In this document: positions 29,085 to 56,185 of the stretch, in pieces
Numbering within the stretch: the stretch's first letter is position 1
Layout of the letters: the number at the start of each line of letters is the position of its first letter
DNA from: Maricaulis parjimensis
Lineage (GTDB): Bacteria > Pseudomonadota > Alphaproteobacteria > Caulobacterales > Maricaulaceae
NCBI RefSeq assembly: GCF_016817355.1
Contig: NZ_JADOTT010000004.1
Location: forward strand, 62,001-126,000
Length of the DNA stretch: 64,000 bases
Direction of reading: 5' to 3'
Program-made: the position numbers and the translations under genes
The notes under the pieces: model-generated
What the model was told of the DNA's origin: nothing
Seen by the model: the letters and a program-made list of their open reading frames with translations, nothing else
Database searches by the model: none

Positions 29085-30263
29085 CTATTGGCTGTCAGCC
29101 GCACTCGCCAGGATCGCAGCTTCAAGCTCGTTCACGCGCGCATTCAGCTGAGCGATATAAATGTGGGCGTGCTCAAGCTCATTAAGCATGCCACCCATTT
29201 TCTGCGACACATTGAACGGTCCGTCTTCCGCCGTGGGGCCAACTCCCGGAAGATAGCCATTATTCCACATCGCAGCTTCATGATCGCTGATCGAGGCCAG
29301 TTCATAATCATCGGCGAAGACCCGGTCACAACCGATCGAGCAGGACCCGGCAGTAGTGAGTTCCCCACGGATGGTCAGGTCACCATCGCCTGTAAGGAGG
29401 AATTCTGGTCCTGCAGTGTCGTCAGTATCGATGATGAAGCGCTGCGGAGCGGTATCCTCGTGGACCAAATACCAGTTCCGCGTTGTCGCGGAGTTTGTCA
29501 TGGTGATCCAAGATCCACCATTGTTAGTTAGGTTGAGCATCTCTCGATAGCCGGCGCTACCCACCTCCTCAACCTTGAGGCTTGTGGCACCATCCGTTCC
29601 ACGGACGTGAAGAGCTGCCCCCGGATTGTCAGTGCCAACACCAACATTGTTATTGGCCGCGATGAACAGTGCATCCGTATCCGCACCCGGCTTGATCCGG
29701 AAGGGAAGCTGAGACCCGTTGGTCACGTCGCGAATAAAGAAGTTGGCCTCATTGGCGACGAGGTCGAACGTCTGGGCCGTGAAGCCGGCCGAGCCATCCT
29801 GTTCAAGGCGCAGGGTCGGACTGTCACCGTCGCGAACATGCAACTCCACTACCGGATTGTCGGCCCCGATACCGACATCACCAGCAGAATCAATCCGCAG
29901 CGAGTTGGACGGAGCACCGGCATCGACACGGAAAACCTGGCGGCCAGCTGTGGAGTCTTCGATAGCGAAGTAGTTGCCGCCACCATTGGACGTATCATTG
30001 ACCAAAATTCGCCAGTCATTGTTCGGGAAGCTGGCAGAGTTGCTGGTGTCGTCGAAATGGATGCGAAGGTTGTTTTCCTTCAGGCGCAGGGTATCGAAAC
30101 CGAAACTCTCGCCATTGACGCAGTCAAAGCCGACGCAAAGGCTCTGCTGGATAATCACATCGTCGACGAAGACCTGATCGGCATTCACGCTTGTCGCTGA
30201 TGCCGCCATGGCCGTCGCCGCGAGAACGCCTGTCAGCGCGGTCCGAGTCAGAAATTTCTTCAT
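29085..30263 (-). CDS. Secreted protein with phage tail-fibre-like repeats and C-terminal coiled coil
   Basis: A 392-residue protein with a signal peptide (1-28). The middle holds two tail-fibre-like units: SAGDVGIGADNPVVELHVRDG and, some 85 residues later, NNNVGVGTDNPGAALHVRG. This style is common in trimeric phage fibres and secreted bacterial proteins. The end (DDYELASISDHEAAMWNN to NELEAAILASAADSQ) resembles a shortened S74-type intramolecular chaperone with a coiled coil; I see no self-cleavage motif and cannot claim one. No phage genes nearby. It follows the next gene by 23 bp, at the end of the long minus-strand run behind the T2SS. Confidence 0.7.
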   Translation of the reverse strand: MKKFLTRTALTGVLAATAMAASATSVNADQVFVDDVIIQQSLCVGFDCVNGESFGFDTLRLKENNLRIHFDDTSNSASFPNNDWRILVNDTSNGGGNYFAIEDSTAGRQVFRVDAGAPSNSLRIDSAGDVGIGADNPVVELHVRDGDSPTLRLEQDGSAGFTAQTFDLVANEANFFIRDVTNGSQLPFRIKPGADTDALFIAANNNVGVGTDNPGAALHVRGTDGATSLKVEEVGSAGYREMLNLTNNGGSWITMTNSATTRNWYLVHEDTAPQRFIIDTDDTAGPEFLLTGDGDLTIRGELTTAGSCSIGCDRVFADDYELASISDHEAAMWNNGYLPGVGPTAEDGPFNVSQKMGGMLNELEHAHIYIAQLNARVNELEAAILASAADSQ

Positions 30264-30286: not shown

Positions 30287-30757
30287 CTAGCCTTCTTGTT
30301 CGGACTGGTCGAATTCGATGATGCGTCCGTCCACAACCCGGAACGAACCTGTGTAACTGTAACCGAGATAGGCCGTGCCCGAATTGGGCTCCCGACCGTT
30401 GTATGCAGCTTCACGTGGCGAAGCACTTTGTCGGCGCTCCGGCGTCGCCGCCGTCATCTCAAACTGGTAAAGGCCATCCGGCACCTGACCATGATCCGCA
30501 AGCCGGAAGCTTGGCGGAACACGGGCCGATGTCACCTGACCATAATACCCGTCCGGCCCGGCCACGCTGAGCGTGAAATTGAAAAGAGCCGGATCTGCAT
30601 CGAAGCGCAGGCGTGAACCTACAACCTGTTCCTGGATCCGGTACTGCCGAACAGACCGGTCTGACTGGGCGTCAGCTGTCGGGGTCAAGCCGCACATGAC
30701 CATGCCAATAGCCAAACTGGTGGCAAGGCCAGACAATCTCGTGGCGAAGGGCTTCAT
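30287..30757 (-). CDS. Small secreted protein, function unknown
   Basis: A 156-residue protein with a signal peptide ending near TPTADAQS (about 31). The mature part is beta-rich: RIQEQVVGSRLRFDADPALFNF, TLSVAGPDGYYGQV, YQFEMTAATPERR and YTGSFRVVDGRIIEF. The C-terminus is acidic. I do not recognise a family. Together with the tail-fibre-like gene 23 bp downstream it may be a pair of surface or secreted components. Confidence 0.55.
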   Translation of the reverse strand: MKPFATRLSGLATSLAIGMVMCGLTPTADAQSDRSVRQYRIQEQVVGSRLRFDADPALFNFTLSVAGPDGYYGQVTSARVPPSFRLADHGQVPDGLYQFEMTAATPERRQSASPREAAYNGREPNSGTAYLGYSYTGSFRVVDGRIIEFDQSEQEG

Positions 30758-30886: not shown

Positions 30887-32146
30887 CTATTCGAATTCCT
30901 CTAGATAAGCCTGAACACGCGATTGCGCATGCTCAACCCTTGCGGGAGGCAGTTGAAGCGCCAATTCATCACGCAAGAGAGGAGCCAGGCCCGCCCCCCC
31001 ATAGGCGGCAAGGCTGAACCAGACATAAGCTTCTGCATAATCCTGCGGCACGCCGAAGCCGTTTGCATGGATGAGTCCGAGAAGAAGACGGGCGCTGCCG
31101 AGACCTTGAGCAGACAGTGCTTCCAGCCGAGACAGTCCCGCATAGATATCCTGACGGACCCCATACCCATTCAATTCCCGCCATGCCATGCGATATCCCG
31201 CAACAGGGTCACCATTGGCCGCAGCCAAAACCTCATTGGCCTGTGGGGGGCGTGTCCAATCATCCGGCATGATCCGCTGGTCGAACGGCATCCCCAGTTC
31301 CTGCAGCCGGGATTGAAGCGACAATCCGCCAACCCGGCGCCCCTCCGCCAATAATTCGCGGGCCCGGGCTTCATCCACAGCAACGCCAAACCCGTTCTCA
31401 TACATGACGGACAGATTGTTCAACCCGGCTTGAAGCCCTTGATCCGCCGCAGCCTGAAACAGGGCAAAAGCGCGATCATAATCCCGTTCAACATCCTCTC
31501 CCCGCACGTACATGAGACCGAGATTGTTCTGCGCCCGCGCATCGCCCGCATCAGCGGCGCGCTCGAACAATTCCAGCGCAGTTTCCGGGTTTCGGGGCAC
31601 ACCACTGCCTTCCAAATGAAGGACACCAAGACTGGTAACAGCCGGGATGTAGTCCTGATCTGCAGCACGCTGGTACCACTCAACGGCCAGTTCTGGTCGC
31701 CCGGCTTCGCCCAAACCGGTTTCCAAGGCAACAGCGTAGTCTGCCTGATAACGCGCCTCGCCGGATTGCGCCGCCTGTCGGAAGAGGTCCAGAGCGAGCG
31801 CCCGGTCCTGCTCCACACCTAGACCCTCTGCGTAGGCACGCGCGAGCGCATTCATCGCCATTGGATCACCGGCCATCGCAGCAGCACGGTTGAGCTGCGC
31901 TGCTTGAGCAAAATCCTGAGGCACCCCCCAGCCCCGCTCGTACAAGCGTGCCAGCAAGGCCTGAGCAGCTGGATTATTGTTCTGTGCCGGCTCGGCCAGA
32001 ACATCCCGGGCCTGCACGTACTGGGCCTGCGCAATGAGGGATTCGGCGCGTTCCACTGCCTGGGTATTCCGCGTCTGCGCATCGCTCTGCGGTGCCCAAA
32101 CCACCAGGCTCAGCGCAGCCAGCATGGCAACAAGACACCTAGCCAT
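30887..32146 (-). CDS. Exported Sel1-repeat protein (second of pair)
   Basis: A 419-residue protein with a signal peptide (MARCLVAMLAALSLVVW, cleavage near SDAQT). About seven Sel1-like repeats follow, for example ALLARLYERGWGVPQDFAQAAQ, LGVLHLEGSGVPRNPETALEL and LGLIHANGFGVPQDYAEAY, with a shared C-cap. Sel1 repeats are alpha-solenoids for protein-protein contacts. I take ATG 32146 because GAGGAG lies 10 bases upstream; 32179 gives a longer overlap with the upstream Sel1 gene, whose stop is at 32139. Probably periplasmic. Confidence 0.85.
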   Translation of the reverse strand: MARCLVAMLAALSLVVWAPQSDAQTRNTQAVERAESLIAQAQYVQARDVLAEPAQNNNPAAQALLARLYERGWGVPQDFAQAAQLNRAAAMAGDPMAMNALARAYAEGLGVEQDRALALDLFRQAAQSGEARYQADYAVALETGLGEAGRPELAVEWYQRAADQDYIPAVTSLGVLHLEGSGVPRNPETALELFERAADAGDARAQNNLGLMYVRGEDVERDYDRAFALFQAAADQGLQAGLNNLSVMYENGFGVAVDEARARELLAEGRRVGGLSLQSRLQELGMPFDQRIMPDDWTRPPQANEVLAAANGDPVAGYRMAWRELNGYGVRQDIYAGLSRLEALSAQGLGSARLLLGLIHANGFGVPQDYAEAYVWFSLAAYGGAGLAPLLRDELALQLPPARVEHAQSRVQAYLEEFE

Positions 32147-33362
32147 CGCGGGCATGCTCCTCGCGCCATTGCGTGGCACGCGCCTGGGCTTCAGCCAACT
32201 GCTCCGGAGTCAGGAATTGCGCGATCAGATTGCGCTCATTCGTGGCCCCTTCCAGGCCTGCCGCCGCGGCAAGATTGGCCCAGATGTGCGCCTGGACATA
32301 ATCCTGCTCAACCCCTTCTCCAGCCGCGTAACGAACAGCCATTTCCAGCTGGGCGCGGGCAATTCCGGCCTCAGCTGCCCGGGCGTAATAATCCAGGGCG
32401 CGGGCCTGGTTTTGCGGCACGACTTCACCCTCATCATACAATGCGGCGAGTGCGCTGAGCGCATCAGAATTGCCTTCGTCAGCCTGATTTTCCAGCCAGT
32501 CAAGCGCATCAGAATTGCCGTGTGTGGCACTTGCCGCCACCCAGACAACGGCCTCTCCAGGCTCACGTGCTGACATGCTTCCAGCCACCACCAGATTGCC
32601 CAACAAGGCATCCGCCCCATTGGCACCGGCATCATAGGCATTGAGATACCAGCGGATGGCTTCGGCGAGATCGACATCCGTCCCCTGTCCATTCTGATAC
32701 ATCATGCCCAGGACCGGCTGCGCGCGGACAAGGCCGGCTTCAGCGGCCATACGGTACCATTGGAAGGCCCGCTCGTAGTCACGCGGCACGCCGACACCTT
32801 GCATATAGGCATAACCCAGATTGGTCTGGGCGCGCAGATCCCCCGCCTCACCTGCCTGCTCCAGGAGCGAGATGCCCCGGCGCGTGTCCCGCGTAACGGC
32901 CGTGCCGGTGAGATAGTAGGACCCCAGAACGGCCTGAGCATCGACACTGCCGCGCTGGGCGGCCCGGTCAAACCATTCCACCCCGTCTTCCAGCGTGTCG
33001 GCCTCTGACGCCTTTTCAAGATAGATCTCGATTAGCGGCTCGATCGCATCCTCATAGCCGTTGCCGGCGGACGCCTCCAGCCAACCCATGGCCAGTTCCC
33101 GGTCGACCCCGACGCCGAACCCCTGACGGTACATCATGCCCAGGCGGAATTGGGCCAACGGATTGCCGGCTTCCGCCGGTGCTTCCAGGATGCCGGCGAC
33201 CTCAGCATATTCCCCGCGAGCATAGGCGGCCTCGGCCTCCTGCATCTGCGCGGCGATCGCTTCGGCATCCGGAGCGCCCGATGAACGCACGACCAAGTAT
33301 CCGGCAATAATCAGAAGCAGAAGGCCTGCACCAGCCATCGCTCCAAGGAGCTCTCGTCTCAA
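32139..33362 (-). CDS. Membrane-anchored Sel1-repeat protein (first of pair)
   Basis: A 407-residue protein with an uncleaved-looking N-terminal span (GAMAGAGLLLLIIAGYLVV) that places the rest in the periplasm. Six to seven Sel1 repeats follow (FRLGMMYRQGFGVGVDRELAM, LGYAYMQGVGVPRDYERAFQ, LGMMYQNGQGTDVDLAEAI and others), ending in DYVQAHIWANLAAAAG, like its neighbour. The start is TTG 33362, with a near-perfect AGGAGG seven bases upstream; the next ATG (33338) is weaker. It lies 36 bp after the permease fusion gene. Confidence 0.85.
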   Translation of the reverse strand: MRRELLGAMAGAGLLLLIIAGYLVVRSSGAPDAEAIAAQMQEAEAAYARGEYAEVAGILEAPAEAGNPLAQFRLGMMYRQGFGVGVDRELAMGWLEASAGNGYEDAIEPLIEIYLEKASEADTLEDGVEWFDRAAQRGSVDAQAVLGSYYLTGTAVTRDTRRGISLLEQAGEAGDLRAQTNLGYAYMQGVGVPRDYERAFQWYRMAAEAGLVRAQPVLGMMYQNGQGTDVDLAEAIRWYLNAYDAGANGADALLGNLVVAGSMSAREPGEAVVWVAASATHGNSDALDWLENQADEGNSDALSALAALYDEGEVVPQNQARALDYYARAAEAGIARAQLEMAVRYAAGEGVEQDYVQAHIWANLAAAAGLEGATNERNLIAQFLTPEQLAEAQARATQWREEHARDG

Positions 33363-33398: not shown

Positions 33399-36300
33399 TT
33401 AGCGGCTCCGGCGGATAATGTGATAGTTCGCACCCGCTGTGAGGTTATCACTGATTTGGGTCGTGCTGCCGTCAGCCCAGATGATCGTCAGACTGTCCGC
33501 CTGGTCCGCATCTCCCAGCCCGAAATGCGCAATGGGCGCATCAAATGACATGAACCCCCCGCCGATCTGCAGCTCGCGCACCTGGCGCGTTTCGCCCTGG
33601 CGCAGCTCGAGTCTCGCCCCGATACCGTCCCGATTACCCACATGGTCCTCGAGCGAGACGGACAGTGCATTCTGGCCGGTCTGGTTGTTGATGAAGGCGA
33701 TCGGCGGGCCGTTCACCGGCACGGTGAACACATCCAGATCACCATCCTGGTCGATATCGACCAGATTGGCGGCGGCCGTAATCAGATAATCATCCAGCCC
33801 CCAAGCGGCCGTCTCTTCTTCGAACTGTCCACCGCCTTGATTGCGCAGGAAAATGTTCGACGGCGTGACCTCATTGGGAACCCAGGTTCCGTTGACGATA
33901 TAGAGGTCTTGCCAACCATCATTGTCGAAATCGCCGGTGGAGACATCCCAGCTCCACCCCCCGACTTCCAGCCCGCGATCACCGGCTGTCTCTGCGTACC
34001 GGCCATCACCCACCGGTTCCAGCAGGACATTCCGGGCTAGGATTTGCGGAATGGCCGCGTCCTGTTCTTCCGGCGTCATCGGCCGCGATGGCATGAAATG
34101 GATATCGCAATAGGCCCGCGCCCGCTCCTGACCCACCGGGATGAGTTCACACAGGGCCGGATTCTGGTTCTGGATGGCGATATCTTTCACCAGCATGCCT
34201 TGGCATTCAGACCGGTAAGGCTCGTTCAGCGTGGCACACCGGCTGGCATAGGACGGATCCAGGCTGTTGCCCGGCCGGTACCAGCGCTTGATATCCATGT
34301 TCAGCTGACAGGTTTCCCGGGCCGTTTCATCCTGGATTCCATCGCAATACCGCTCAATCGGTTGCATGTGGAGCCGATTGGAAATTCCCGAAGCGCGGCC
34401 TGCAATCTGGGCCGCATAGATGGAATAGCGTCCGGAATTATCCAGATCCGCTGTGGTCAGCGACATCGTGGTCGTTGTGGTTTCCGGGATCAGACCGGAC
34501 TGACGGGTGATTGCCTCGAAACCGCCCTCGCCATTCCCGAGATAGAAATAATCGGGCACTTCGAAATCATTGGCGACGAGGAGGTCGAGGGCACCGTCCT
34601 GATTCATGTCGCTGAACAGGATCGACAGCGTCTCCCCCGGAATGCCGGGCAGATCGAGAAAGGCATCGCCGGTCAGCCCCTCTTCCGTATTGAACACGAT
34701 ACGGTTGCGGCTCTCCTCACCGGGAACACGCCGATACCAGCCCGCTGCCCAGTTTCCGAGTGCAAGATCGAGATCTCCATCACGGTCCACATCGCCGAAA
34801 CTAGCCGACAGGGCGAGGATCGCATCATCCCGGTTCGTGACCTGACGCAAGCCGTCCGGATTGAACCGTCCATTCTCATTGGGGAGGATATACAGGCCCC
34901 GCCGGTAGGTTGTCAGGAAGAGGTCACGCCAGCCATCATTGTCGATATCGACCAGCACGGCATTGAAGACCGGAAGATGGGCGACCTGGCCCAGATCCAG
35001 CACGACCGGCTCGAAACGGCCGCTCCCATCATTCGCATAGATGTAGAGCCCATTATGCGTTGAGGCATAGACCAGATCAGTATCGCCATCGCCATCGATA
35101 TCGCCGGATGACAGGCTGCGACCTTCCCAGAAGGGGGGCCACATGTCGGCGAAGGAAAATTCGATGGGATGATCAATTCCCAGCTCAGCGGCCTCGATCC
35201 GGGTGAACCCGTCAGCTCCTAGCCCGGTCGACGTCTGGAAAGGTGTCCGCTGGACCGTCAGGCTTGCCCCCGACGTTTCCGATTGACCGCTGGCCACCGG
35301 CACGTCCGCATCAACTGTTTGGGCCAAATCTGTCAGATCCGTTTGAATGTCGGTCTGGGCAAAATCCTCCGTCAGGATCCGCAGGGCCCGTTCGGTCTGG
35401 TAGCGGTGCCAGCCGTCCGCACCGAGACCGGCCAGAAAACCCAGAACCATGATGGTTCCGCCAAGGATGAACCCGGCCCGCCAGCCGATCGAGGTCGAAA
35501 CGACGAAGAAGGAGTAGATCGAAAAACTGCCCAGGCAGAAGACCAGGGTCATGATCATGCCATGGCTGGCACCCCCGTTCAGGAGCGCGCCGGACAGCAC
35601 GACGTCAAACCCGATCGGCACAGGAAAAAAGGTCCCGACAATAGCCGCAATGGCTGCCTGGAGCGGACCGAAATCCCACGACGCGATCGCCCCGGCCGGC
35701 AGGAAACTCGCCGCCAATGCCCCCAGGAATCCGGCCAGAAGCATGAGGGGCAGAGTCGTGCGGACGATGAACCAGAGATTCCGGGCAAAATCCCGCAGGA
35801 ATTCAATAAAGGACCGAGGAAGACTTCCGTCATCCACGCTGTCTTCCGCATCGGCGGCCAGCATGGGCGGGATGGGTGACGGGCCCGTTTTCTTGACGGA
35901 GTGAAGGAGTTTCTCTTCCGGGATGAAGCGGCAGATGATCGGCACAGCGACCAGGATGACGCCGAGGCTGAGCGCGACCTTTGTGACCGCGATGTAGAAA
36001 GGCAGCAGCGAGAAAGCCATCGTCAGCACGACCACATTGAGGGTCGGGGATGCGACCATGGCCGACAAGGTTGTCTCCGCCCGGGATCCGCCCTGGTAAA
36101 GCCCCTTCGCGATTGGTGCGGCGCAATTCACGCACACCCCCAAAGGCGCCCCGAGAAACATGCCGTAAAGCGAATTGGCAAAGGGTCCGGCGAAATGCCG
36201 GCGCCGCAGATATCCGAGCAGGGTCAGGAAGGCGGAGCCGAACAGGACACCGAACGTCATCCCCTTCTTGTTGGTGTCGATCCAGTTCACCGTAGACACC

Positions 36301-36518
36301 GACACGCGTTCAACAGGCCCCATATCCGGGCTGAGCGGGATAAGCGCCTCGAAACTGAGCGGGTCCTCGAGCTGGATGGCCCCACCCATCATCGCTTTCT
36401 CATCGAGCGACGGGTAACGCGATTGGGTCCAGAAAAAGATGGCGAGCACCGCCACCAGAATGGCCGCAAACAGCAGACGCGCGGATGTTCCGCGTTTAAT
36501 GAGATTACCTGCCTGCAC
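33399..36518 (-). CDS. ArsP-like permease fused to FG-GAP/VCBS repeats and ASPIC_UnbV domain
   Basis: A 1039-residue fusion. Residues 1-370 are a multi-span permease: an N-terminal span at about 13-30, then spans around 88-105, 116-175, 180-198 and several to 370. A cysteine pair C129-V-N-C132 sits in GVCVNCAAPIAKGLYQGG, in the place of the CSC-type motif of ArsP/DUF318 permeases. After a linker, residues 460-1039 hold at least six calcium-binding Dx[DN]xDG repeats (GDIDGDGDTDL, VDIDNDGWRDL, GDVDRDGDLDL, GDFDNDGWQDL, VDIDQDGDLDV). A cysteine-rich insert and a C-terminal ASPIC_UnbV-like unit (GGGFMSFDAPIAHFGLGDADQ) complete it. Start GTG 36518, with GGGAG seven bases upstream. 39 bp after gspK. 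Role unknown; the ectodomain is probably periplasmic. Confidence 0.85.
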   Translation of the reverse strand: MQAGNLIKRGTSARLLFAAILVAVLAIFFWTQSRYPSLDEKAMMGGAIQLEDPLSFEALIPLSPDMGPVERVSVSTVNWIDTNKKGMTFGVLFGSAFLTLLGYLRRRHFAGPFANSLYGMFLGAPLGVCVNCAAPIAKGLYQGGSRAETTLSAMVASPTLNVVVLTMAFSLLPFYIAVTKVALSLGVILVAVPIICRFIPEEKLLHSVKKTGPSPIPPMLAADAEDSVDDGSLPRSFIEFLRDFARNLWFIVRTTLPLMLLAGFLGALAASFLPAGAIASWDFGPLQAAIAAIVGTFFPVPIGFDVVLSGALLNGGASHGMIMTLVFCLGSFSIYSFFVVSTSIGWRAGFILGGTIMVLGFLAGLGADGWHRYQTERALRILTEDFAQTDIQTDLTDLAQTVDADVPVASGQSETSGASLTVQRTPFQTSTGLGADGFTRIEAAELGIDHPIEFSFADMWPPFWEGRSLSSGDIDGDGDTDLVYASTHNGLYIYANDGSGRFEPVVLDLGQVAHLPVFNAVLVDIDNDGWRDLFLTTYRRGLYILPNENGRFNPDGLRQVTNRDDAILALSASFGDVDRDGDLDLALGNWAAGWYRRVPGEESRNRIVFNTEEGLTGDAFLDLPGIPGETLSILFSDMNQDGALDLLVANDFEVPDYFYLGNGEGGFEAITRQSGLIPETTTTTMSLTTADLDNSGRYSIYAAQIAGRASGISNRLHMQPIERYCDGIQDETARETCQLNMDIKRWYRPGNSLDPSYASRCATLNEPYRSECQGMLVKDIAIQNQNPALCELIPVGQERARAYCDIHFMPSRPMTPEEQDAAIPQILARNVLLEPVGDGRYAETAGDRGLEVGGWSWDVSTGDFDNDGWQDLYIVNGTWVPNEVTPSNIFLRNQGGGQFEEETAAWGLDDYLITAAANLVDIDQDGDLDVFTVPVNGPPIAFINNQTGQNALSVSLEDHVGNRDGIGARLELRQGETRQVRELQIGGGFMSFDAPIAHFGLGDADQADSLTIIWADGSTTQISDNLTAGANYHIIRRSR

Positions 36519-36557: not shown

Positions 36558-37376
36558 TTAATGCCATGCGTCCGGTTGCGTATCCAGAGCAGACATGGCC
36601 TCTTCTCCACAGCTTCCGGACAAAGGCCGGTCAACGCCGAAACTGACCCACTCAAAAGGCCGGTCCTGCCCCCTGGCAAAGAGCGCAAGCCCGGTCATGC
36701 TTTCAACGCGCCCGCCCCTTCCCGTCACTCGGGCCCGAAAAACGGTTCGCATACCGTCCATGGTCAGGGCTTCAGCCCCTTGCAGGTCATCCAGTTCCGG
36801 CATGCGAGTCGCTCCAAGCGCGGTCACATAAGGCCGCACACACGCCAGTCTTTGCGGATTGACACCAGCCACGCGTCCCAATTCCTCGACACTGACAAAA
36901 GGACGGTTCTGAGGGGCGTGATCGCCGTCACTGCCTTCGAAGCCGAGCGCGCGAGGCAGCGTGTCCGGGTCCCGCCAATCGAGAATATGGTCCGCCAATC
37001 GCCGGGCGGCCGTCTCCGACTCGCCCAGACGGATCCACAACGCCATCCAGTCCTCATCATTGGCCAGATTGATATCCAGCAGGGTTTGGGAGGGCGAAAG
37101 ATCCACAAGAACCGTCTGCCCCGCCACGCTGATCGTGCGGGGAAACTCGGCGAGCGCTGTGCGACCGATCAAGGCCGTATCAAACGCCGCAATATCCAGC
37201 GCAGAGCGGAGGATTTCACGCGTCTGTGCCGCCTCCCGTTCAAACCGCGCAACCCGAATCTGCGACTGCACCAGCACGGTCACAGCCAAAAGGATCACGG
37301 AGAGCAAGAGGCTCAGCCAGAGGACAATCAAAAGGGCGGACCCCCGGCTTCGGGATATCCGGGCCGGGCCGATCAT
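36558..37376 (-). CDS. gspK: Type II secretion minor pseudopilin GspK
   Basis: Largest minor pseudopilin, thought to cap the pseudopilus tip. It has 272 residues. The prepilin-like leader SRGSALLIVLWLSLLLS lacks the usual glutamate at mature position 5, which is normal for GspK. The alpha-helix and the GspK-type body follow: LLDINLANDEDWMALW, DHILDWRDPDTLPR and RVAGVNPQRLACVRPYV. Its ATG follows the gspD stop with no gap (TAGATG). Last gsp gene of the operon. Confidence 0.9.
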   Translation of the reverse strand: MIGPARISRSRGSALLIVLWLSLLLSVILLAVTVLVQSQIRVARFEREAAQTREILRSALDIAAFDTALIGRTALAEFPRTISVAGQTVLVDLSPSQTLLDINLANDEDWMALWIRLGESETAARRLADHILDWRDPDTLPRALGFEGSDGDHAPQNRPFVSVEELGRVAGVNPQRLACVRPYVTALGATRMPELDDLQGAEALTMDGMRTVFRARVTGRGGRVESMTGLALFARGQDRPFEWVSFGVDRPLSGSCGEEAMSALDTQPDAWH

Positions 37377-39437
37377 CTAGTCGAACAGATCCTGTTGCCG
37401 CGCTTCGAGCGCTTCCAGCTCGCGCCGCAAATGCTGGAGCGCGGCAGCCGCGTCATCATCATTGTTGATAATCCGCGGCGTCAGAAAGATAACAAGTTCA
37501 CTACGTTCACTGGACATCTGGCGATTGCGGAAGGCATTGCCCAGTCCCGGAACCCGGCTGATCAGCGGGATGGCGGCTTCATTGTCGGAGCGCGTCTCCC
37601 GGATCAGGCCACCCAGCGCAATCGTGTTGGCACTACGCACGGCGACCGTGCTCGTGAATTCCAGTTTCTGGATGGTCGGTGAGTCGATCCCCGATGTCGT
37701 GGTCGGTCTAACCGTGGACACTTCCTGGTTTACATCCAGGACGACCAACCCGCTGGCATTGATCCGCGGCGTGACCTCCAGGATCACGCCCGTCTCGCGC
37801 AATTCGATCGAGGAAACGAGCGGGGCATTGTTCTCGGCAACAGAGGTGGCCGTCTGCGTCACGATCGGCACTTCGTCGCCGACCTGGAGGTGCGCGGTCT
37901 GATTGTTCTGGACCATGATCGACGGAGCCGACAACACGGTCACGTCCGTGATCGAATTGAGTGCGCTCAGCGTGGCCTGGAAATTGGTCCCCGTGAACGC
38001 ATAGTTGAAGCCCGGATAGACCGGTGTGTTCGTGCCGGATTCATTGTCGATGAAACTGGTGACGGAATCCCCTTCCCCGCTCTGGGATTCAAAGAACCAG
38101 CGCACACCGAAATCCAGCCCATCCACCAGCCGGACTTCCGCGATGGTCGCCTCGATCAGAACCTGGGGCGGCATGACATCCATCCGCTCTACCAGTTCAA
38201 TGATTTCGCGATATTCCTGGTCCGTCGCGCGGATGATCAGGGCATTGTTCAACAGATCCGGAATGATGGCGAGACGCCCTTCTTCCTCGGAATCCCCCGC
38301 TCCTGGCGCCTGGTCGTCACCGGCAAATCTCGGTTCAGCGCCATTCTGCGAACCTGCTGCGCTGCCGGCGAAGGCGGCTGAAATCTGGGAAGCCAGCGTC
38401 GCAGCCGGTGCATTGCGCGCCACGTAATAGCGCAGCCGGCGCGTATCACCGCCCGAAGGACGGTCAAAGCGTTCGATGAAATCCTGAACCTGATTGAAAT
38501 GGCCACGGTCACGTGTGGTCACGAAGAGAAGGTTGAGACGCGGCAAGGCAATGGTCCGCGCTGCATTGCGAGACACGCCCAGACCTTCCAGCACCGCATC
38601 CACTTCCGTCTTCGCCGTTTGCGCATTCACATAGCGAAGCTCAAACATGCCGAAGACGCGATTGGTGAGGAAAGGCCGGTCAAAGGTTCGAATGGCACTT
38701 TCCGCAGACTGGACCTCACTGCCCGGTCCCGCCAGCACGATGACACCGGCCTCATCCAACGGAATGGCCTCCAACTGGTCCGTCAGAAAGGGATCGATCA
38801 GCAAGAGGATGGATGACGGATCGGTATTGACGACCGGAACGATCCGGCCGCCATAACCCAGCTGGCCGGACTGGGTCGGCAGATTGGGCTGCGCCGTATC
38901 CGCGCGCGTCAAAAGATAACCGGTTTCCCGTTCGATCAGGGCCAGACCGGATTCAGCGAGCACGGCTTCCAGCGCCGACAGAGCGACCGGAACGGCGGCG
39001 GGCTCCTGAGAGGTCAGGGTGATCCGGCCGCCCACCCCGTCCGACACCATGACGGTCTCGCCAAGCGCCTCTTCCACAATCGTGCGGACAGCTTCGACCA
39101 CCGGTGCGTCCACGAAATTCAGACGCAGCGTCCGGTTGGGATCGGCGCTCCGGCCGGCTGTCGCAGCCAGACGTGGTCCGTTCGACTGCTCGAAATAGAC
39201 CAGACGATCCGCGCCACCCTCATCAACCTGCGCCTGACTGTTTGCGGTTTCCGAAGTGTCGGCAGTCTGGCTCTGAGCACTGGAACTGGTCGCCGCTGCC
39301 CCGGCTCGATCGGCCTCGGCTTGCGGATAGCGATCCGCGTGAATCCGGCTGGCATCCGGCACCAGGGTTTCACAACCCGAAAGGGCAAGGCTGGCGGCCA
39401 TCACTGAGACCGAAAGCATGAAACTGCGAAACACCAT
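37377..39437 (-). CDS. gspD: Type II secretion outer-membrane secretin GspD, predicted lipoprotein
   Basis: Forms the outer-membrane gate. A 686-residue protein beginning at ATG 39437 (GGGGAA nine bases before). The signal sequence ends LALSGC, so C22 is a probable lipidated cysteine with Glu at +2. N0 (residues near 95-170, LRLNFVDAPVVEAVRTI), N1-N3 domains with FELRYVNAQTAKTEVDAVL, and the secretin core near 500-650 (VGDEVPIVTQTAT, SSIELRETGVILEVTPRIN, PLISRVPGLGNAFR) are visible. The ORF extends to TTG 39482, overlapping gspC, but that start is less likely. Lipidated secretins are known in some systems that need no separate pilotin. Confidence 0.93.
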   Translation of the reverse strand: MVFRSFMLSVSVMAASLALSGCETLVPDASRIHADRYPQAEADRAGAAATSSSAQSQTADTSETANSQAQVDEGGADRLVYFEQSNGPRLAATAGRSADPNRTLRLNFVDAPVVEAVRTIVEEALGETVMVSDGVGGRITLTSQEPAAVPVALSALEAVLAESGLALIERETGYLLTRADTAQPNLPTQSGQLGYGGRIVPVVNTDPSSILLLIDPFLTDQLEAIPLDEAGVIVLAGPGSEVQSAESAIRTFDRPFLTNRVFGMFELRYVNAQTAKTEVDAVLEGLGVSRNAARTIALPRLNLLFVTTRDRGHFNQVQDFIERFDRPSGGDTRRLRYYVARNAPAATLASQISAAFAGSAAGSQNGAEPRFAGDDQAPGAGDSEEEGRLAIIPDLLNNALIIRATDQEYREIIELVERMDVMPPQVLIEATIAEVRLVDGLDFGVRWFFESQSGEGDSVTSFIDNESGTNTPVYPGFNYAFTGTNFQATLSALNSITDVTVLSAPSIMVQNNQTAHLQVGDEVPIVTQTATSVAENNAPLVSSIELRETGVILEVTPRINASGLVVLDVNQEVSTVRPTTTSGIDSPTIQKLEFTSTVAVRSANTIALGGLIRETRSDNEAAIPLISRVPGLGNAFRNRQMSSERSELVIFLTPRIINNDDDAAAALQHLRRELEALEARQQDLFD

Positions 39438-39465
39438 CACCGGATTCCCCGTATCCGCAACCTGG

Positions 39466-39882
39466 TCAGCGATTGAGCTCAAAGCTGCGCTGATCCCCGT
39501 CTAGGGCGAATACTACCCTGTCTGCAAGGATTTGCACCAATTCATACCCGTTCAGCCAGTCGCCGACTTCCAGCGTATGGCTTTCGCCGTTCCCGGCCAT
39601 CAGCGCCCATTGCGCATCGCCGGTTTCAACCAGACCGATCAATTCAAACCCGGCGAGCGGGTCCCGGTCCTGTGTGACCGTACGAACCGGCCGTTCCGCC
39701 CTGGCAATGCGTCCGGACAGGGCCGGAATCCAGTCACCGGCAACAGGCCCGGTGACAGGCTGCCCCTGCAAGACTGGCTGGTCAGCAAGGTCAGCACGAG
39801 ATGCCGGCCAAACACCGGCAATGACAATCGCCAGCGAACCGGCCGCCAGAATGCCTGTCAGAAGGTCAGCGGTCCTGGGCAT
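39466..39882 (-). CDS. gspC: Type II secretion inner-membrane protein GspC, short
   Basis: GspC links the inner-membrane platform to the secretin. This copy is only 138 residues: an N-terminal span (LLTGILAAGSLAIVIAGVW), a Pro/Asp linker and one HR domain (FELIGLVETGDAQWALMAGNGESHTLEVGDWLNGYELVQ split by a few residues). It stops there, with no PDZ or coiled-coil domain. ATG 39882 is chosen because GGAGG lies six bases upstream. It overlaps the gspM end. Assignment rests on the HR domain and position before gspD. Confidence 0.8.
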   Translation of the reverse strand: MPRTADLLTGILAAGSLAIVIAGVWPASRADLADQPVLQGQPVTGPVAGDWIPALSGRIARAERPVRTVTQDRDPLAGFELIGLVETGDAQWALMAGNGESHTLEVGDWLNGYELVQILADRVVFALDGDQRSFELNR

Positions 39883-40438
39883 CATCCACCTCCGCGCTGA
39901 CAAGGCGAAACTCCAAATCGATTTGGACCTGCCCGGGTTCCGGGTGGGCATTGAGGTCAAACCGGACGGTATCCAAGCCTGCCAGATCCGGACGGGATAA
40001 CAGGGTCAGGATCAGATCCGAATTCCCCTGCATCCGCAACAGGAAGCGGTCTTCCCGCCAGCCATCACCCAATTCATCCTCGATGACCGGACCAGCCGAC
40101 ATCACTTGAATTCCGGCTTCATCCAGAGCGCGGACCAGGGTCTCCATTTGTCCAGCGAAGCGGCTGCGGGCTGCGACCGGGTTCCTTGCGGCCTGAAGGT
40201 CGAAATCCGTGGCCGCGGAAATCCCGGCGCGCGATTGCAGCTCGTCCCAATTTTCCTGGATGCGCGCCTCCAGTATCCCGGCCTCCGCGGACTGGCGAGC
40301 CAGACTATCATACTGGACCAGCATGTTCACAAAGAGCCCGGCAAGCGGAACGACCAGGCCAAGTGCAACACCGAGAACCAGACTCCAGGCAATCAGGGGC
40401 CGCGCAGCGTGCGGCAGTGTGGCGAGAGGCAATCTCAT
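39866..40438 (-). CDS. gspM: Type II secretion inner-membrane protein GspM
   Basis: Partner of GspL in the inner-membrane platform. It has 190 residues: one N-terminal span (LIAWSLVLGVALGLVVPLAGLFV), a coiled-coil stretch with YDSLARQSAEAGILEARIQENW, and a small ferredoxin-like domain (FLLRMQGNSDLILTLLSRPD). Sequence similarity in this family is weak, so the call leans on topology and on the ATGA overlap with gspL and the overlap with gspC. Confidence 0.78.
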   Translation of the reverse strand: MRLPLATLPHAARPLIAWSLVLGVALGLVVPLAGLFVNMLVQYDSLARQSAEAGILEARIQENWDELQSRAGISAATDFDLQAARNPVAARSRFAGQMETLVRALDEAGIQVMSAGPVIEDELGDGWREDRFLLRMQGNSDLILTLLSRPDLAGLDTVRFDLNAHPEPGQVQIDLEFRLVSAEVDDAQDR

Positions 40439-41382
40439 GGTTCGCCCTCGCCGGTCTGAAGTGTCTGTGTGGTCGCTTGTAGCGCTTCGCCTTCACCCCG
40501 TGAGAGCAGCAGTTCCAACGAGCCGGCATGCCCCAGACGCGCGCGTTCAAGCCTCTGCTCCTCCGCCAGCGCATCAGGCAGTGTGGCCAAAGCCGACATG
40601 ACATCGCCCAGATAAACCGGCTCACCGGCCAGTTCGCGCGCCGACTCAATCCGGTCCAGCAACTCGCTTTCACCTCTCAGGACCCGAATGCGTTCAAGCT
40701 GGCCACCGCGATCGGCCAGGGCTGCATCGGCGGAGCGCTCGAAACGGTCTGACCAGACCAGAAGCGCAGCCAGGGCAAGCAGATAAACCAATCCGAATTT
40801 CAAGAGACCGGATGCGGGCCGGTGACCACCCTTGCTAAAGACATACCGGCTCTCGCCGCGCGGTCCGAGCTCACCGGCAAGTTCCCAGCACACCCCAGGC
40901 TGGAACCCATCGACCAACGCGGATAGCTGCGCTTGCCGCGCAATCCTGAGCGAAACGGGGACACGCGCCTCAGCGTCCAGTTCATCAACCTCGAACGCGT
41001 AAACACCCTGCCCGTCCGCCAACGGCATGAACCGGTCCTGCCGCAAGTCCAAAGCCTCACGCCCCCGTCGCGCCGCCATCGCCGACAAGGTAAGGTCCGT
41101 GCGGAACTGAAAGGCCTCAGCAAGCACCAAGACCTGACGGGGCAGAGCGGCAACCGTCCTGTTGTCGGCAGGCCGGATCCGGCTTTGCCCCATCCAGGAT
41201 ATCTCACGAATGCCGATTGCGTTGCGCGTGCCATCCTCGCCCACGGACCAAAGACCGGCATCGAGCCGCCAACCGAGGCCTTGCAGCCCCTCTGGCAATC
41301 CCGAGCGAACGACATCCAGCGCCCAACGCCAGATATCGGCACTTGCCTCTGCCAGCCTGGTTACCTGCGACTGCACACTCAA
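40435..41382 (-). CDS. gspL: Type II secretion inner-membrane protein GspL
   Basis: Bridges the GspE ATPase to the inner membrane. About 315 residues: an N-terminal cytoplasmic domain to about 215 that is shorter than the usual 240-270, one span (LLKFGLVYLLALAALLVWS), and a periplasmic helical/ferredoxin-like part. The likely start is TTG 41382, overlapping the gspJ stop (TTGA); TTG 41400 and GTG 41376 are also possible. Similarity is weak in this family; position between gspJ and gspM supports it. Confidence 0.75.
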   Translation of the reverse strand: MSVQSQVTRLAEASADIWRWALDVVRSGLPEGLQGLGWRLDAGLWSVGEDGTRNAIGIREISWMGQSRIRPADNRTVAALPRQVLVLAEAFQFRTDLTLSAMAARRGREALDLRQDRFMPLADGQGVYAFEVDELDAEARVPVSLRIARQAQLSALVDGFQPGVCWELAGELGPRGESRYVFSKGGHRPASGLLKFGLVYLLALAALLVWSDRFERSADAALADRGGQLERIRVLRGESELLDRIESARELAGEPVYLGDVMSALATLPDALAEEQRLERARLGHAGSLELLLSRGEGEALQATTQTLQTGEGEP

Positions 41383-41993
41383 AAATCCGCCCCCAAACAA
41401 ATCCCCTGCCCGGAATCATATTCGCAATCAACCGGCGCCTGTCCCCCGACGAGGGCTTCGATCCTGCGTAACTGCCCGTCCTGCCTTGTCATGTCCAGTA
41501 CGACCAGTCTCGGCATCCATTCCCGGTCCCACTCATCCATCCAGACCGGCGCAAGCCCGTCGGCAGGGTCGCCGAAATAATGAAGGCGCAAGTCCTGGTT
41601 CGGCAGGGTGAAACGGGTCCGGAAGGCCGTGCCATCAGGATAGGGAGACACCGAAATTTCAACCCCGTCGGACTGGAGTGCAAGAACGGCCATATACAGT
41701 CCGTCATGCCCACGCGGACGGGTCAGGAAGCTGAGTTGGACACTGTCGCCCGCGAGCAGCTGGCCGTGCATGTCAGCGCTAGCCGTCTGGGCCTGCGCCA
41801 GCAACTCCCGCATACTCTCTTCCAGCGCAGCGTGCGTGTTTCGTACATCGACCCGTTCGGTCACACGCGTTTCTGCCTGGCTGGCAATACGGATAACCGG
41901 CAGCATAAGCGCGGCGATGGCCGCCAGGATTGCGCCTGCCATGAGAACTTCAAGCAGGGTGAATCCAGCCTCGTGATCAGACGCCCGCCTCAT
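41379..41993 (-). CDS. gspJ: Type II secretion minor pseudopilin GspJ
   Basis: Minor pseudopilin of the tip complex. It has 204 residues with a clear prepilin leader: EAG followed by FTLLEVLMAGAILAAIAALML, Glu at mature position 5. The body carries the GspJ-type beta-sheet (LSFLTRPRG, RLHYFGDPADG, RLVVLDMTRQDGQL). It overlaps gspI by ATGA and gspL by TTGA. Confidence 0.92.
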   Translation of the reverse strand: MRRASDHEAGFTLLEVLMAGAILAAIAALMLPVIRIASQAETRVTERVDVRNTHAALEESMRELLAQAQTASADMHGQLLAGDSVQLSFLTRPRGHDGLYMAVLALQSDGVEISVSPYPDGTAFRTRFTLPNQDLRLHYFGDPADGLAPVWMDEWDREWMPRLVVLDMTRQDGQLRRIEALVGGQAPVDCEYDSGQGICLGADF

Positions 41994-42394
41994 GGCTGCC
42001 CGCCCTCTTCCTGACCGATCGGCCCGGCCTCCAAAAAAACCAGGAACAGGGTGAAATCGGCGGAACCGGCATGCGGGCGCAGCAAGCGCGCTTGGCTGAG
42101 GGTTGCCCCCGTCAGCGGATCGACCGGCCGGTCATGGGGGGAAATGTCGATCTGCCAATCAGGATAGGCTTCGGCGATCTGAGCCGGGTCGATCCCTGCA
42201 CGAAGCCGCGCGGTAATATTGCGGGCCTCCAAAACGTCCTGACGGGCCATATCCGCGCGGTTGCTTCCACGCGCACTCAGTCCAAGCCCGCCCATGCCTG
42301 CCATGATGACCGCTGAGGCGATCGCTCCGGCCACAAGGACTTCGGTTAGGGCATAGCCGGACTGGCGGACTTGCCTTTCAGTCATTCCGGTCAT
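41990..42394 (-). CDS. gspI: Type II secretion minor pseudopilin GspI
   Basis: Minor pseudopilin, 134 residues, with leader QSG followed by YALTEVLVAGAIASAVIMAG, Glu5 present. The C-terminal part is short, as usual for GspI. ATG 42394 is preferred because GAGG lies six bases upstream; a later ATG at 42385 and the ORF start at 42421 are alternatives. It overlaps the gspH end. Confidence 0.87.
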   Translation of the reverse strand: MTGMTERQVRQSGYALTEVLVAGAIASAVIMAGMGGLGLSARGSNRADMARQDVLEARNITARLRAGIDPAQIAEAYPDWQIDISPHDRPVDPLTGATLSQARLLRPHAGSADFTLFLVFLEAGPIGQEEGGQP

Positions 42395-42878
42395 GCCGCA
42401 CCTCACCACTGATCGGGTCAAGCTGGATGGTCTGCCTCTGATCGCCCTGCGTCAGGACCAGGCGGAACAGGAAGAGCGGGATCCCCTGTTGGGGAATGGC
42501 GACGCTGGAAACCCGCTGCCACCCCTGCCCCTCGTCAAAGGCCAAGCTGGCTTCCACATCGGCAGGCCAGGCCATGAGCGCCTGTGCGTCGCCGTCCGTC
42601 CAGATCCGGTAACCTGTTTCCGTCACCTCGAGTTGGACATCAACGCCTTGCTGGACAGCATCACGGCGGGCACGCCGCAAATCCTGGGTCAGCCCAGCGG
42701 CCGTCCGCTCCAGGACATTCCCCTGAACGGCGCGGATGACAGCCAGCCCGGTAAAGCTTGCCAGAACCGCCATGATCGCCAGAACGATAAGGAGTTCGAA
42801 CAGCGTGAATCCCGAATTCCGGTCGTGGCCGCCAAGCGCCGGGCGACTAGCTGCGGGTGAGATCGCGATCTTCGCCAT
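42378..42878 (-). CDS. gspH: Type II secretion minor pseudopilin GspH
   Basis: Minor pseudopilin, 166 residues. Prepilin leader NSG followed by FTLFELLIVLAIMAVLASF, Glu5 present. GspH-type body with RRARRDAVQQGVDV and TETGYRIWTDG. ATG 42878 (GGGGGG just before it) overlaps the gspG end by 32 bases; the reading frame extends further to 42938, but the extra residues look untranslated. Confidence 0.9.
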   Translation of the reverse strand: MAKIAISPAASRPALGGHDRNSGFTLFELLIVLAIMAVLASFTGLAVIRAVQGNVLERTAAGLTQDLRRARRDAVQQGVDVQLEVTETGYRIWTDGDAQALMAWPADVEASLAFDEGQGWQRVSSVAIPQQGIPLFLFRLVLTQGDQRQTIQLDPISGEVRHDRND

Positions 42879-43275
42879 CACCCCCCACTTCCCCGTCCCT
42901 GCCGAGGGTCGACAGGATATAGCGTTCCGTCTGCGCATTCAGGGCATAGCCATAGGGACGCCCCCACGGATCGGTCAGCCCCGACACATTACTGAAATAG
43001 GGCCCTTGCCAGGCGGGATTATCCTCGGGAGCCTCGACCAGGGCGACGAGCCCCTCCTCGGCATCAGGGTATTGCCCCATGTCCAGATAATAGAGTTCCA
43101 GCGATGTTGCGATGGAGGCCATCTGGGCCTCTGCCACATCAACCTTGGAGCGTCCCACATAACCGATCACACGCGGCGCGACGATCGTTGCCAGCAAGGC
43201 AATGATGACCATCACCACAAGGATTTCAAACAGCGTGATACCGGCGTCCGAACTGCGTTGATTGACCTGTTTCAT
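42847..43275 (-). CDS. gspG: Type II secretion major pseudopilin GspG
   Basis: Main subunit of the pseudopilus, 142 residues. Leader DAG followed by ITLFEILVVMVIIALLATIVAP, Glu5 present; Ile rather than Phe at mature +1 is less common. The C-terminal calcium-loop region is clear: LDMGQYPDAEEGLVAL, DPWGRPYGYALN and STLGRDGEVGGDGEDRDL. ATG 43275 follows the gspF stop (TGATATG); the frame also has ATG 43293. GspG is the best conserved of the pseudopilins, and this one is unmistakable. Confidence 0.95.
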   Translation of the reverse strand: MKQVNQRSSDAGITLFEILVVMVIIALLATIVAPRVIGYVGRSKVDVAEAQMASIATSLELYYLDMGQYPDAEEGLVALVEAPEDNPAWQGPYFSNVSGLTDPWGRPYGYALNAQTERYILSTLGRDGEVGGDGEDRDLTRS

Positions 43276-43276
43276 A

Positions 43277-44485
43277 TCAGAAAACCGCTTCATTGAGACT
43301 GAGGACGCCGATGATGACCGAGGCGATCACGCCACCGATGCACAAGGCCAGTATGATGATCATGGCCGGACCGATCAATTCGACATAGGCCTTCAACCGT
43401 GCACGGACTTCGCGGTCATACAGGGCCGCCGCGCGCATCAGCATGGTATCGAGATGGCCGGTCTTTTCGCCCATTGAGATCAGTCGCAGGGCATCGTCCG
43501 GAAGAGCGCGAACCGCCTCAAGCGAGCTGGAATACACATCGCCTGCCCTCACCCGGTCGGCCGCACGGGCGTGGCGGGACCGCAGGCCGGCAGACTCAAT
43601 AGCCTCGCGTGCAATGGGCTCGGCCTTTGCCAGCGGTCGCCCGGCCGACAACAACAGGCCGAGCGCCTGACAATACCTTACGGAGTCCAGGCGCAATCGT
43701 ATCCAACCCCACGCGGGCAAGCGCGCCAGCAATTGGTCCACCTGGCCGGGAAACAGGCGGGCGGCCGCCTGGACCAGAACAGCAAGGCCCACGATACCGA
43801 CCGGGATCCAGACGCCCCAGCCCCGGATGAAGGCCCCCGCGGCGATCACGAAACCGGTCAGCCCCGGTGGTTCCGCACCGGCATCGGCAAACACCGTCTC
43901 GAAAGTTGGCAGGATGAAGTGGGCGAGAAACAGCAAAGTCCCCATGAAGACGACCAGAAGGATGGCCGGATAGACCAGCTGGCCGATGATCTCGCCCCGA
44001 AGATCAAGATCACGCTCCAATTGTTCAGCAAGATCCGTGAAATTTCGGGCCAGAAGTCCCGATTCCTCACCCGCCTCGGCGAGCGCGTAGACGGATCGCG
44101 GCAGGCCCGCCGGATCTTCCTTGACGGCTGTGCTGAGACTGTCCCCGCGGCGCACCCGGGCCTCCAGCCGGGCAATCACGGCTTTCAGGGCGGGCCGCTT
44201 TTCACGCTCACCCAAACTGGCCAATACATCCTTGAGCGGGAGCTCGGCCGACGCCAGATCGGCAATGCCACGTACGAGATCGACGGTTTCGCGTAAAGAC
44301 AGGGACCGGCGTTGCGCGCGAAAGCTGAATACACCCGTGGCGTTTGCGGGCTGCACCTTTACCGGGATGGCACCCAGGGTCCGGATCTGCTGCACCGCCT
44401 CCTGGCGGCTCGCTGCGGTGGCTTCGCCCCGGATGATCCGGCCGTCCGCCTGTTCTGCTGTATACCGCCAGACCTGCATCGTCAT
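43277..44485 (-). CDS. gspF: Type II secretion inner-membrane platform protein GspF
   Basis: Polytopic platform protein of the T2SF family, 402 residues. Two repeated cytoplasmic helical domains flank the membrane spans, e.g. VRGIADLASAELPLKDVLASL and CQALGLLLSAGRPLAKA, with PRSVYALAEAGEESGLLARN and LRLISMGEKTGHLDTML as the matching loop motifs. Start ATG 44485 overlaps the gspE stop as ATGA. Confidence 0.94.
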   Translation of the reverse strand: MTMQVWRYTAEQADGRIIRGEATAASRQEAVQQIRTLGAIPVKVQPANATGVFSFRAQRRSLSLRETVDLVRGIADLASAELPLKDVLASLGEREKRPALKAVIARLEARVRRGDSLSTAVKEDPAGLPRSVYALAEAGEESGLLARNFTDLAEQLERDLDLRGEIIGQLVYPAILLVVFMGTLLFLAHFILPTFETVFADAGAEPPGLTGFVIAAGAFIRGWGVWIPVGIVGLAVLVQAAARLFPGQVDQLLARLPAWGWIRLRLDSVRYCQALGLLLSAGRPLAKAEPIAREAIESAGLRSRHARAADRVRAGDVYSSSLEAVRALPDDALRLISMGEKTGHLDTMLMRAAALYDREVRARLKAYVELIGPAMIIILALCIGGVIASVIIGVLSLNEAVF

Positions 44486-55770: not shown

Positions 55771-56185
55771 ATTTCCCCCCAAGCACCCTGCCGGATGCCG
55801 CACCATCAATGTAATGCCCGGTTTGCCCAATGCCGGATACGAATCGGATTCGCGTGTGAATCCGGTTTCAAAACAGACACTACATGGAATTGCATTTTGG
55901 CAGAAGCATCGATTTACGCCTCATTAGGATTTTTCGCCACTTGCTGCAGCGCAGCAAACAACGCAATTGTCGGACAATAATTCGAAACGCAATAGACGCG
56001 ACAAACACTCAGGCTCGCGGAAGAGGACACTTTTCTATTGTTTTCTCATTGCTTAAGCCAATCTCCTGATAACCTCAAAGACACTGCTTGAGGTATCAAA
56101 GGGGGTTAGCAAGCCTCACGCTTTCCTGCTTGAAGTATGGCGTGCTGGGCAAATCAGGGCATAAGCCGGGATATCACAGATCCGG
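55771..56185. other. AT-rich divergent intergenic region between giant gene and mazG
   Basis: A 415-bp non-coding stretch holding the promoters of two divergent genes. I see a palindrome (55941-55957), a strongly AT-rich block at 55960-56080 and a near-repeat pair CTGCTTGAGGTAT (56084-56096) and CTGCTTGAAGTAT (56126-56138), 42 bp apart. No ORF or RNA gene is convincing. Confidence 0.55.
55941..55957. promoter_or_regulatory. Palindromic operator candidate upstream of the giant gene
   Basis: TTGCTGC-AGC-GCAGCAA, perfect 7-bp arms with a 3-base spacer, about 170 bp upstream of the giant-protein ATG and 230 bp upstream of mazG. It may be a regulator site or a hairpin in the leader; no regulator can be named. 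Confidence 0.4.

Follow-up and report, generated by a model that had tools for sequence, protein, structure and literature searches.

A permease–propeller fusion protein linked to type II secretion genes in Maricaulis parjimensis and other marine bacteria

We analysed a stretch of 64,000 nucleotides from Maricaulis parjimensis (assembly GCF_016817355.1, contig NZ_JADOTT010000004.1, positions 62,001 to 126,000 of the forward strand; this whole stretch is called the window) and report on one of its genes, which encodes a membrane permease and a large propeller head in a single protein. This permease–propeller fusion is genuine, conserved and uncharacterised, and very probably belongs to a gene module of the type II secretion system (T2SS). 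It appears to be an unstudied component of that system, since many marine bacteria conserve it, often beside T2SS genes. Its annotation label reads 'FG-GAP-like repeat-containing protein', and literature searches, whose coverage largely excluded subscription papers, found no published study of it.

A first-pass annotation made from the sequence had placed the fusion gene at 33399-36518; the coordinates proved correct, and the gene lies on the minus strand. A single uninterrupted open reading frame (ORF) spans an ArsP_1 permease, FG-GAP repeats and a UnbV_ASPIC tail.

33399-36518, minus strand: permease–propeller fusion, 1039 amino acids, with a GTG start at 36518 and a stop that ends at 33399.
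35367-36518, minus strand: permease part, residues 1-384 (AlphaFold2 model, segment charges).
36123-36134, minus strand: CVNC motif, residues 129-132, at a helix break (alignment of 31 members; break at 127-129 in the model).
35262-35366, minus strand: variable linker, residues 385-419; many relatives, but not this protein, have a hydrophobic + A[HQEYN]A motif here.
33402-35261, minus strand: propeller and ASPIC part, residues 420-1039, CRTAC1-like, with six Dx[DN]x[DNG]G loops (Pfam, Foldseek, alignment).
34104-34346, minus strand: helical insertion with cysteines 725, 737, 761, 772, 790 and 804 (alignment; model helices 731-807).

The Pfam matches lie above the family cut-offs for ArsP_1 (residues 114-365, E 3.2e-14, 53.2 bits against a cut-off of 32.3), for FG-GAP_3 in five stretches (E 2.5e-36, 124.5 bits, the best at 473-534) and for UnbV_ASPIC (residues 965-1028, E 2.3e-17, 63.1 bits), bearing out the proposal that an ArsP_1-family permease and a large FG-GAP/ASPIC head are joined in one protein. 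Ten other genomes of the family also carry the fusion, with 62-85% identity over all ten; nine encode it in one frame, and in the tenth (G005) it is split over two contig ends. A frameshift, an assembly join or a chimera is ruled out by these nine in-frame copies together with near full-length relatives elsewhere. Nor are the two halves separate genes in every relative, since full-length fusions occur in many of them.

We scanned GTDB species genomes with two short patterns, found 260 stretches that encode relatives and kept the best 80, to which locus counts out of 80 refer. Nearly end-to-end matches, from residue 29 or before to residue 1029 or beyond, were found at 77 of these 80 loci, one of which (L100) matches across a stop codon; the fusion is not peculiar to this genome. 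The titles of the loci are mainly of Roseobacter and Maricaulis type, with metagenome-assembled genomes (MAGs) under other labels. The fusion was present in 3 of 385 genomes of the class and 3 of 398 of the phylum, the window genome being included in both. Among 369 genomes from the class of a MAG titled Gammaproteobacteria (that MAG included), 13 gave matches at a threshold of E 1e-30. Six of these are fusions, three are partial matches, and the remaining four are an adjacent pair of genes, a propeller alone, a permease alone and an alternative fusion (L137). One of the six fusions (G813) has an ORF that begins only past the first transmembrane (TM) region. A lone propeller gene (L136) has a signal-peptide-like start.

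The L100 locus carries permease and propeller as a split form. Quick trees of each half, made without bootstrap and with several rows on long branches, group it with fused forms (Shimodaira–Hasegawa-like approximate likelihood ratio test 88 for the permease and 89 for the propeller). Because the trees put L100 among fused forms, its split looks derived, and separate genes as the ancestral state are not supported. In L137 (7593-10364, minus strand), a CANC permease is followed by an FG-GAP/ASPIC head that lacks the six-cysteine insertion, perhaps the result of an independent fusion. On one MAG contig, two similar loci (L068 and L069) stand about 95 kb from each other, each with GspD at the same offset; they are either a duplication or an assembly artefact.

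Evidence for the T2SS module comes from linkage and co-occurrence. T2SS-type genes were found within 10 kb of the fusion at 47 of 80 loci (at four of these, a prepilin peptidase alone), and at least one of three accessory genes, encoding Sel1-repeat proteins, the small secreted protein S157 or the tail-fibre-like protein B396, at 70 of 80; both counts are lower bounds, because our own ORF caller at times preferred a longer frame in antisense, miscalling five fusion loci in this way, and contig ends cut the flanks. We counted 16 clusters as T2SS-type, of which eight were tried with Pfam through their Roseobacter-type members and the others were named via window members or position. Among the eight, A24, G, J, K and M scored above their cut-offs and L below its own, and the pilin motif is present in H and I.

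In a set of 41 related genomes, the fusion occurs in 11, a close GspD secretin (61-100% identity) in the same 11 and B396 again in the same 11, although on another contig in G022. GspD-like proteins in the other 30 reach 39% identity at most (best E 1e-83) or are missing. The probability of the coincidence, 1/C(41,11), is 3e-10, a figure that ignores relatedness; within the genus, presence of the fusion is patchy (10 of 19). T2SS-type flank genes are missing from 33 of the 80 loci; we searched the genomes of 25 of these, several of them MAGs, with one Roseobacter GspD as the query, and 12 carry a close GspD (56-68% identity) elsewhere. Eight plasmid records have the fusion. Seven of them also have B396, and for the eighth B396 lies on another plasmid of the same species. 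On the 54-kb Tateyamaria omphalii plasmid pDOK1-4-5 (L154), genes for the T2SS, TPR and SEL1 proteins, a small hypothetical protein, a tail-fibre protein and the fusion are consecutive; we note that this plasmid holds most T2SS genes, three annotated tail fiber proteins (the one tested has a Collar domain) and a sulfotransferase. Judged as a T2SS accessory by linkage (47/80) and by co-occurrence with one GspD clade (11/41), the fusion belongs, with high probability, to a T2SS gene module.

The first-pass annotation had overlooked the surrounding T2SS cluster. In the window, the fusion gene closes a same-strand T2SS run, with the order gspE-F-G-H-I-J-L-M-C-D-K directly upstream, and past it come two Sel1 genes, then S157, then B396. 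Signal-peptide-like and other N-terminal features below were judged by eye.

44482-46080, minus strand: GspE (T2SSE, E 2e-125).
43277-44497, minus strand: GspF (T2SSF, E 1e-42).
42847-43293, minus strand: GspG (T2SSG, E 1e-29).
42378-42938, minus strand: GspH-like pseudopilin (N_methyl, E 9e-8; position).
41990-42421, minus strand: GspI-like pseudopilin (position and prepilin-like start; no Pfam match).
41379-41993, minus strand: GspJ-like pseudopilin (N_methyl, E 9e-4, below cut-off; position).
40435-41400, minus strand: GspL candidate (named only from its position and conserved cluster c17; Pfam gave no match).
39866-40438, minus strand: GspM candidate (position only; no T2SS family match).
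39466-39960, minus strand: GspC candidate (T2SSC, E 0.02, below cut-off; position).
37377-39482, minus strand: GspD secretin (Secretin, E 2e-44; co-occurrence).
36558-37376, minus strand: GspK (T2SSK_1st, E 4e-12).
32139-33362, minus strand: Sel1-repeat protein with an N-terminal TM (Sel1, E 1e-48).
30887-32179, minus strand: Sel1-repeat protein with a signal-peptide-like start (Sel1, E 3e-52).
30287-30757, minus strand: S157, a small secreted FnIII-like beta sandwich with a signal-peptide-like start (AlphaFold2 model, predicted local distance difference test (pLDDT) 80.6).
29085-30263, minus strand: B396, a secreted tail-fibre-like protein with a signal-peptide-like start (PHROG tail fiber, E 3e-11).
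46177-55830, minus strand: 3217-amino-acid protein with many Big_12 immunoglobulin-like domains, directly upstream of gspE (Pfam).

Between gspK and B396, neighbouring genes are separated by no more than about 130 bases, which makes a common transcript plausible; a promoter scan found no excess of promoters over shuffles. S157 gave no family match, and a fold search returned nothing under E 0.001, its best being a weak FnIII match (E 0.01). An alignment of 20 B396 sequences is conserved in the N-terminal part and varies between relatives in the C-terminal part, as in adhesins. No arsenic gene was recognised beside the fusion.

Other neighbours were also recorded. Relatives of the cluster of the 3217-amino-acid protein adjoin the fusion in several Roseobacter loci. 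At L133 (854-17266) the fusion sits within a nonribosomal peptide synthetase (NRPS) gene cluster with a sulfotransferase. At L139 (2792-14123) a distant fusion adjoins PqqD, asparagine synthase, Transglut_core3 and ABC genes, a lasso-peptide-like set, as well as two similar secreted proteins, one of which was tested and has a Collar domain. Lasso-peptide-like, NRPS and peptidase-exporter neighbours were seen in one case each. Sulfotransferases were considered as a partner and set aside: by a generous count from nine seeds, some of which are TPR proteins, they occur at 20 of 91 loci, which do not include the window, and they are of mixed families and strands.

An AlphaFold2 model of the fusion, built with 31 aligned members, has a pLDDT of 82.7 and a predicted template modelling score of 0.75. 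Four of its helices are broken (112-126/130-142, 147-159/162-171, 285-297/304-314 and 319-331/334-343), and the breaks coincide with the strongly conserved motifs GVC (127-129), SPTLN, PVPIGF and GSFS. We read the modelled permease helices as 1+4+4, giving nine predicted TM helices; one report describes this pattern for an ArsP family member (PMC7176098). Loop 103-112 has 3.03 lysine and arginine residues against 0.06 aspartate and glutamate, and loop 342-348 has 1.23 against 0. Since these loops are positive and loops 33-85, 198-247 and 370-416 are net acidic, we infer an N-in/C-out topology. At L100, where the two parts are split, the gene for the propeller opens with a signal-peptide-like sequence directly after the permease stop, which supports a periplasmic head. 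From the charge pattern and this start, the head most likely lies in the periplasm, as the first-pass annotation had it; the sensor role it suggested for the head is not borne out.

The CVNC motif was confirmed at residues 129-132. All 31 aligned members keep C129, N131 and C132, some other members have alanine as the second residue (six loci, all CANC), and distant kin of the permease carry CVNC, CTNC or CANC. A survey reports a C(S/T)C motif in 49 of 49 ArsP proteins from arsenic operons (PMC4435449). This hallmark is absent from the fusion permease, which has CxNC instead in all 31 members, whereas nine standalone ArsP_1 proteins found by the permease profile have C(S/T)CC. The name 'ArsP-like' is sound for family membership, as the Pfam match indicates, but not supported as a functional label, since this hallmark is missing. 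CxNC, SP-x-[LMF]-N and other permease motifs are kept from alpha- to gammaproteobacterial members. NCBIfam models match residues 117-371 weakly: SaoE (NF040736) at E 5e-7, with 29.3 bits against a cut-off of 325, and the SO_0444 Cu/Zn efflux family (NF033936) at E 2e-4, with 20.8 bits, short of its equivalog cut-off of 300. In one genome, a standalone CANC permease has an MbnP gene (E 5e-38) on one side and a CCP_MauG (MbnH-like) gene on the other, which hints at copper.

The head resembles the animal protein CRTAC1 in sequence profile (9etn, E 5.5e-23) and in predicted fold (Foldseek against 9etn, E 2e-20, probability 1.00), and integrin-like propellers also match it. It carries six calcium-type loops. 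Four cysteines of the helical insertion are kept in 31 of 31 members and two in 30 of 31; all six would fit disulfides outside the cytoplasm.

On its sequence, the linker is variable, and a conserved short motif is present in it in the Roseobacter branch. The hydrophobic + A[HQEYN]A pattern, which is signal peptidase I-like, occurs in 51 of 84 linkers and in 2 of 84 copies of another variable loop. By group, it is found in 48 of 66 Roseobacter-type and other rows, in 3 of 12 Maricaulaceae and in none of six gammaproteobacterial linkers. For the only blind test of the motif, linkers dissimilar to earlier ones were fetched once the pattern was fixed. Of 23 loci that entered, six CANC loci were lost to a 'VNCA' filter, and ten of the remaining 17 were dropped as resembling earlier linkers or each other; five of the seven left have the motif, whereas shuffled linkers average 0.79 (five are reached in 2 of 2,000 shuffles). 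An earlier test on 37 linkers gave 23 with the motif (shuffled mean 4.4, maximum 11) and was not blind, because the pattern had been written after viewing 39 linkers and most others.

These counts, and the signal-peptide-like start of the split form at the linker position, raise the idea that the fusion is a polyprotein whose linker is cleaved by signal peptidase I on the periplasmic side, releasing the propeller. That the Roseobacter-branch motif is cut by signal peptidase is our guess. Against a polyprotein, the motif is absent from the window protein, from 9 of 12 Maricaulaceae linkers and from all six gammaproteobacterial ones. Generic small-x-A sites are at shuffle level in linkers (69 of 72, against 69.0), and two other measures are weak: a site matrix trained on B396 is slightly above shuffles (2.76 against 2.04, standard deviation 0.32), and a hydrophobic-core rule selects 22 of 72 linkers (against 14.8, standard deviation 3.1). 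The linker's hydrophobic stretch is short and lies about 30 residues past the last TM, and none of these shuffles preserves relatedness. We regard the polyprotein as rather improbable.

The picture that we put forward, with about an even chance of being right as a whole, is of a T2SS-module permease in the inner membrane which would transport a ligand and whose periplasmic propeller would receive it or couple it to exported proteins. The fusion would be an inner-membrane protein with nine TM helices (N-in, C-out), the permease in the membrane and the CRTAC1-like propeller in the periplasm, and in Maricaulales and Rhodobacterales it would be an accessory of one T2SS module with the two Sel1 proteins, S157 and B396. 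The permease may move a small ligand across the inner membrane, our best guess being a soft metal ion; the propeller may receive the ligand or couple it to exported proteins, which the T2SS would pass through the outer membrane. Such a handing-on of ligand from permease to propeller to exported proteins we propose only tentatively. A bolder version is speculative and very unlikely: a transporter proper to this T2SS variant, whose propeller loads ligand, perhaps copper, into the fibre-like proteins before they exit, the Roseobacter propeller being freed by signal peptidase and travelling with or through the T2SS.

Several observations weigh against the picture of a ligand-transporting T2SS accessory. 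At eight of the 80 loci the flank shows no T2SS-type and no accessory gene, and of the 25 genomes searched for GspD, eight gave no match at E 1e-40 and five a distant one only. The fusion is patchy, occurring in 14 of 238 genomes of one Roseobacter family; gammaproteobacterial fusions lie in other settings, such as the NRPS cluster, and Diaphorobacter has B396 without the fusion or T2SS alongside. A copy on a Parasedimentitalea plasmid (L175, 343-3364) is annotated in three pieces and is perhaps broken. Segment 368-386, past the last TM, contains some positive charge as well (1.81 lysine and arginine, 2.48 aspartate and glutamate), a sequence search gave no solved structure related to the permease, and the copper hint is a single case.

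Two further explanations give the permease a different part. It might be a mere anchor, with the propeller as the working part that serves B396 and other T2SS substrates in the periplasm as a scaffold or chaperone. The T2SS linkage suits this, as do the signal-peptide-like start of the lone propeller L136 and the match of the head to integrin-like propellers, which bind proteins. Yet the motifs kept from alpha- to gammaproteobacterial members, CxNC and SP-x-[LMF]-N among them, would be superfluous in an anchor, and the permease also exists alone; we think this explanation unlikely. Alternatively, the protein could transport a metal (copper), bind it with its periplasmic head and be functionally unrelated to the adjoining T2SS. 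Its similarity to the SO_0444 exporter, far below the cut-off, and the one standalone permease between MbnP and CCP_MauG genes point this way, but the fusion, one GspD clade and B396 share the same 11 of 41 genomes and no metal gene is among the window neighbours identified, so that independence from the T2SS seems distinctly doubtful.

Compared with known systems, the fusion shares with ArsP_1/DUF318 proteins (PF03773; TCDB 2.A.119) the Pfam match and a pattern of two repeats of four TMs each preceded by an additional TM, as PMC7176098 describes for a family member; it differs in lacking C(S/T)C, in adding a C-terminal propeller of about 620 residues and in having no recognised arsenic gene beside it. 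SaoE and SO_0444, weakly similar to residues 117-371, would lack a propeller, as their models are 352 and 351 positions long. CRTAC1 (cartilage acidic protein 1; FG-GAP + ASPIC) resembles the head in profile and fold, and the head adds the six-cysteine helical insertion. CRTAC1 is secreted and has no permease. MbnP and MbnH-like genes flank the standalone CANC permease of one genome, and neither was found among the window neighbours identified. The module provides a testable setting for the CxNC branch of ArsP_1 permeases and would be an entry point to a family hitherto annotated merely by its FG-GAP-like repeats. T2SSs, known protein exporters, have a standard complement of components; in the window, genes for this complement stand on one strand, several of them named by position only. 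To our knowledge, that complement includes neither the permease–propeller nor the Sel1 pair, S157 or B396. A conserved marine module, in some cases carried on a plasmid, in which the system gains a transporter with a calcium-loop head would broaden the view of the T2SS.

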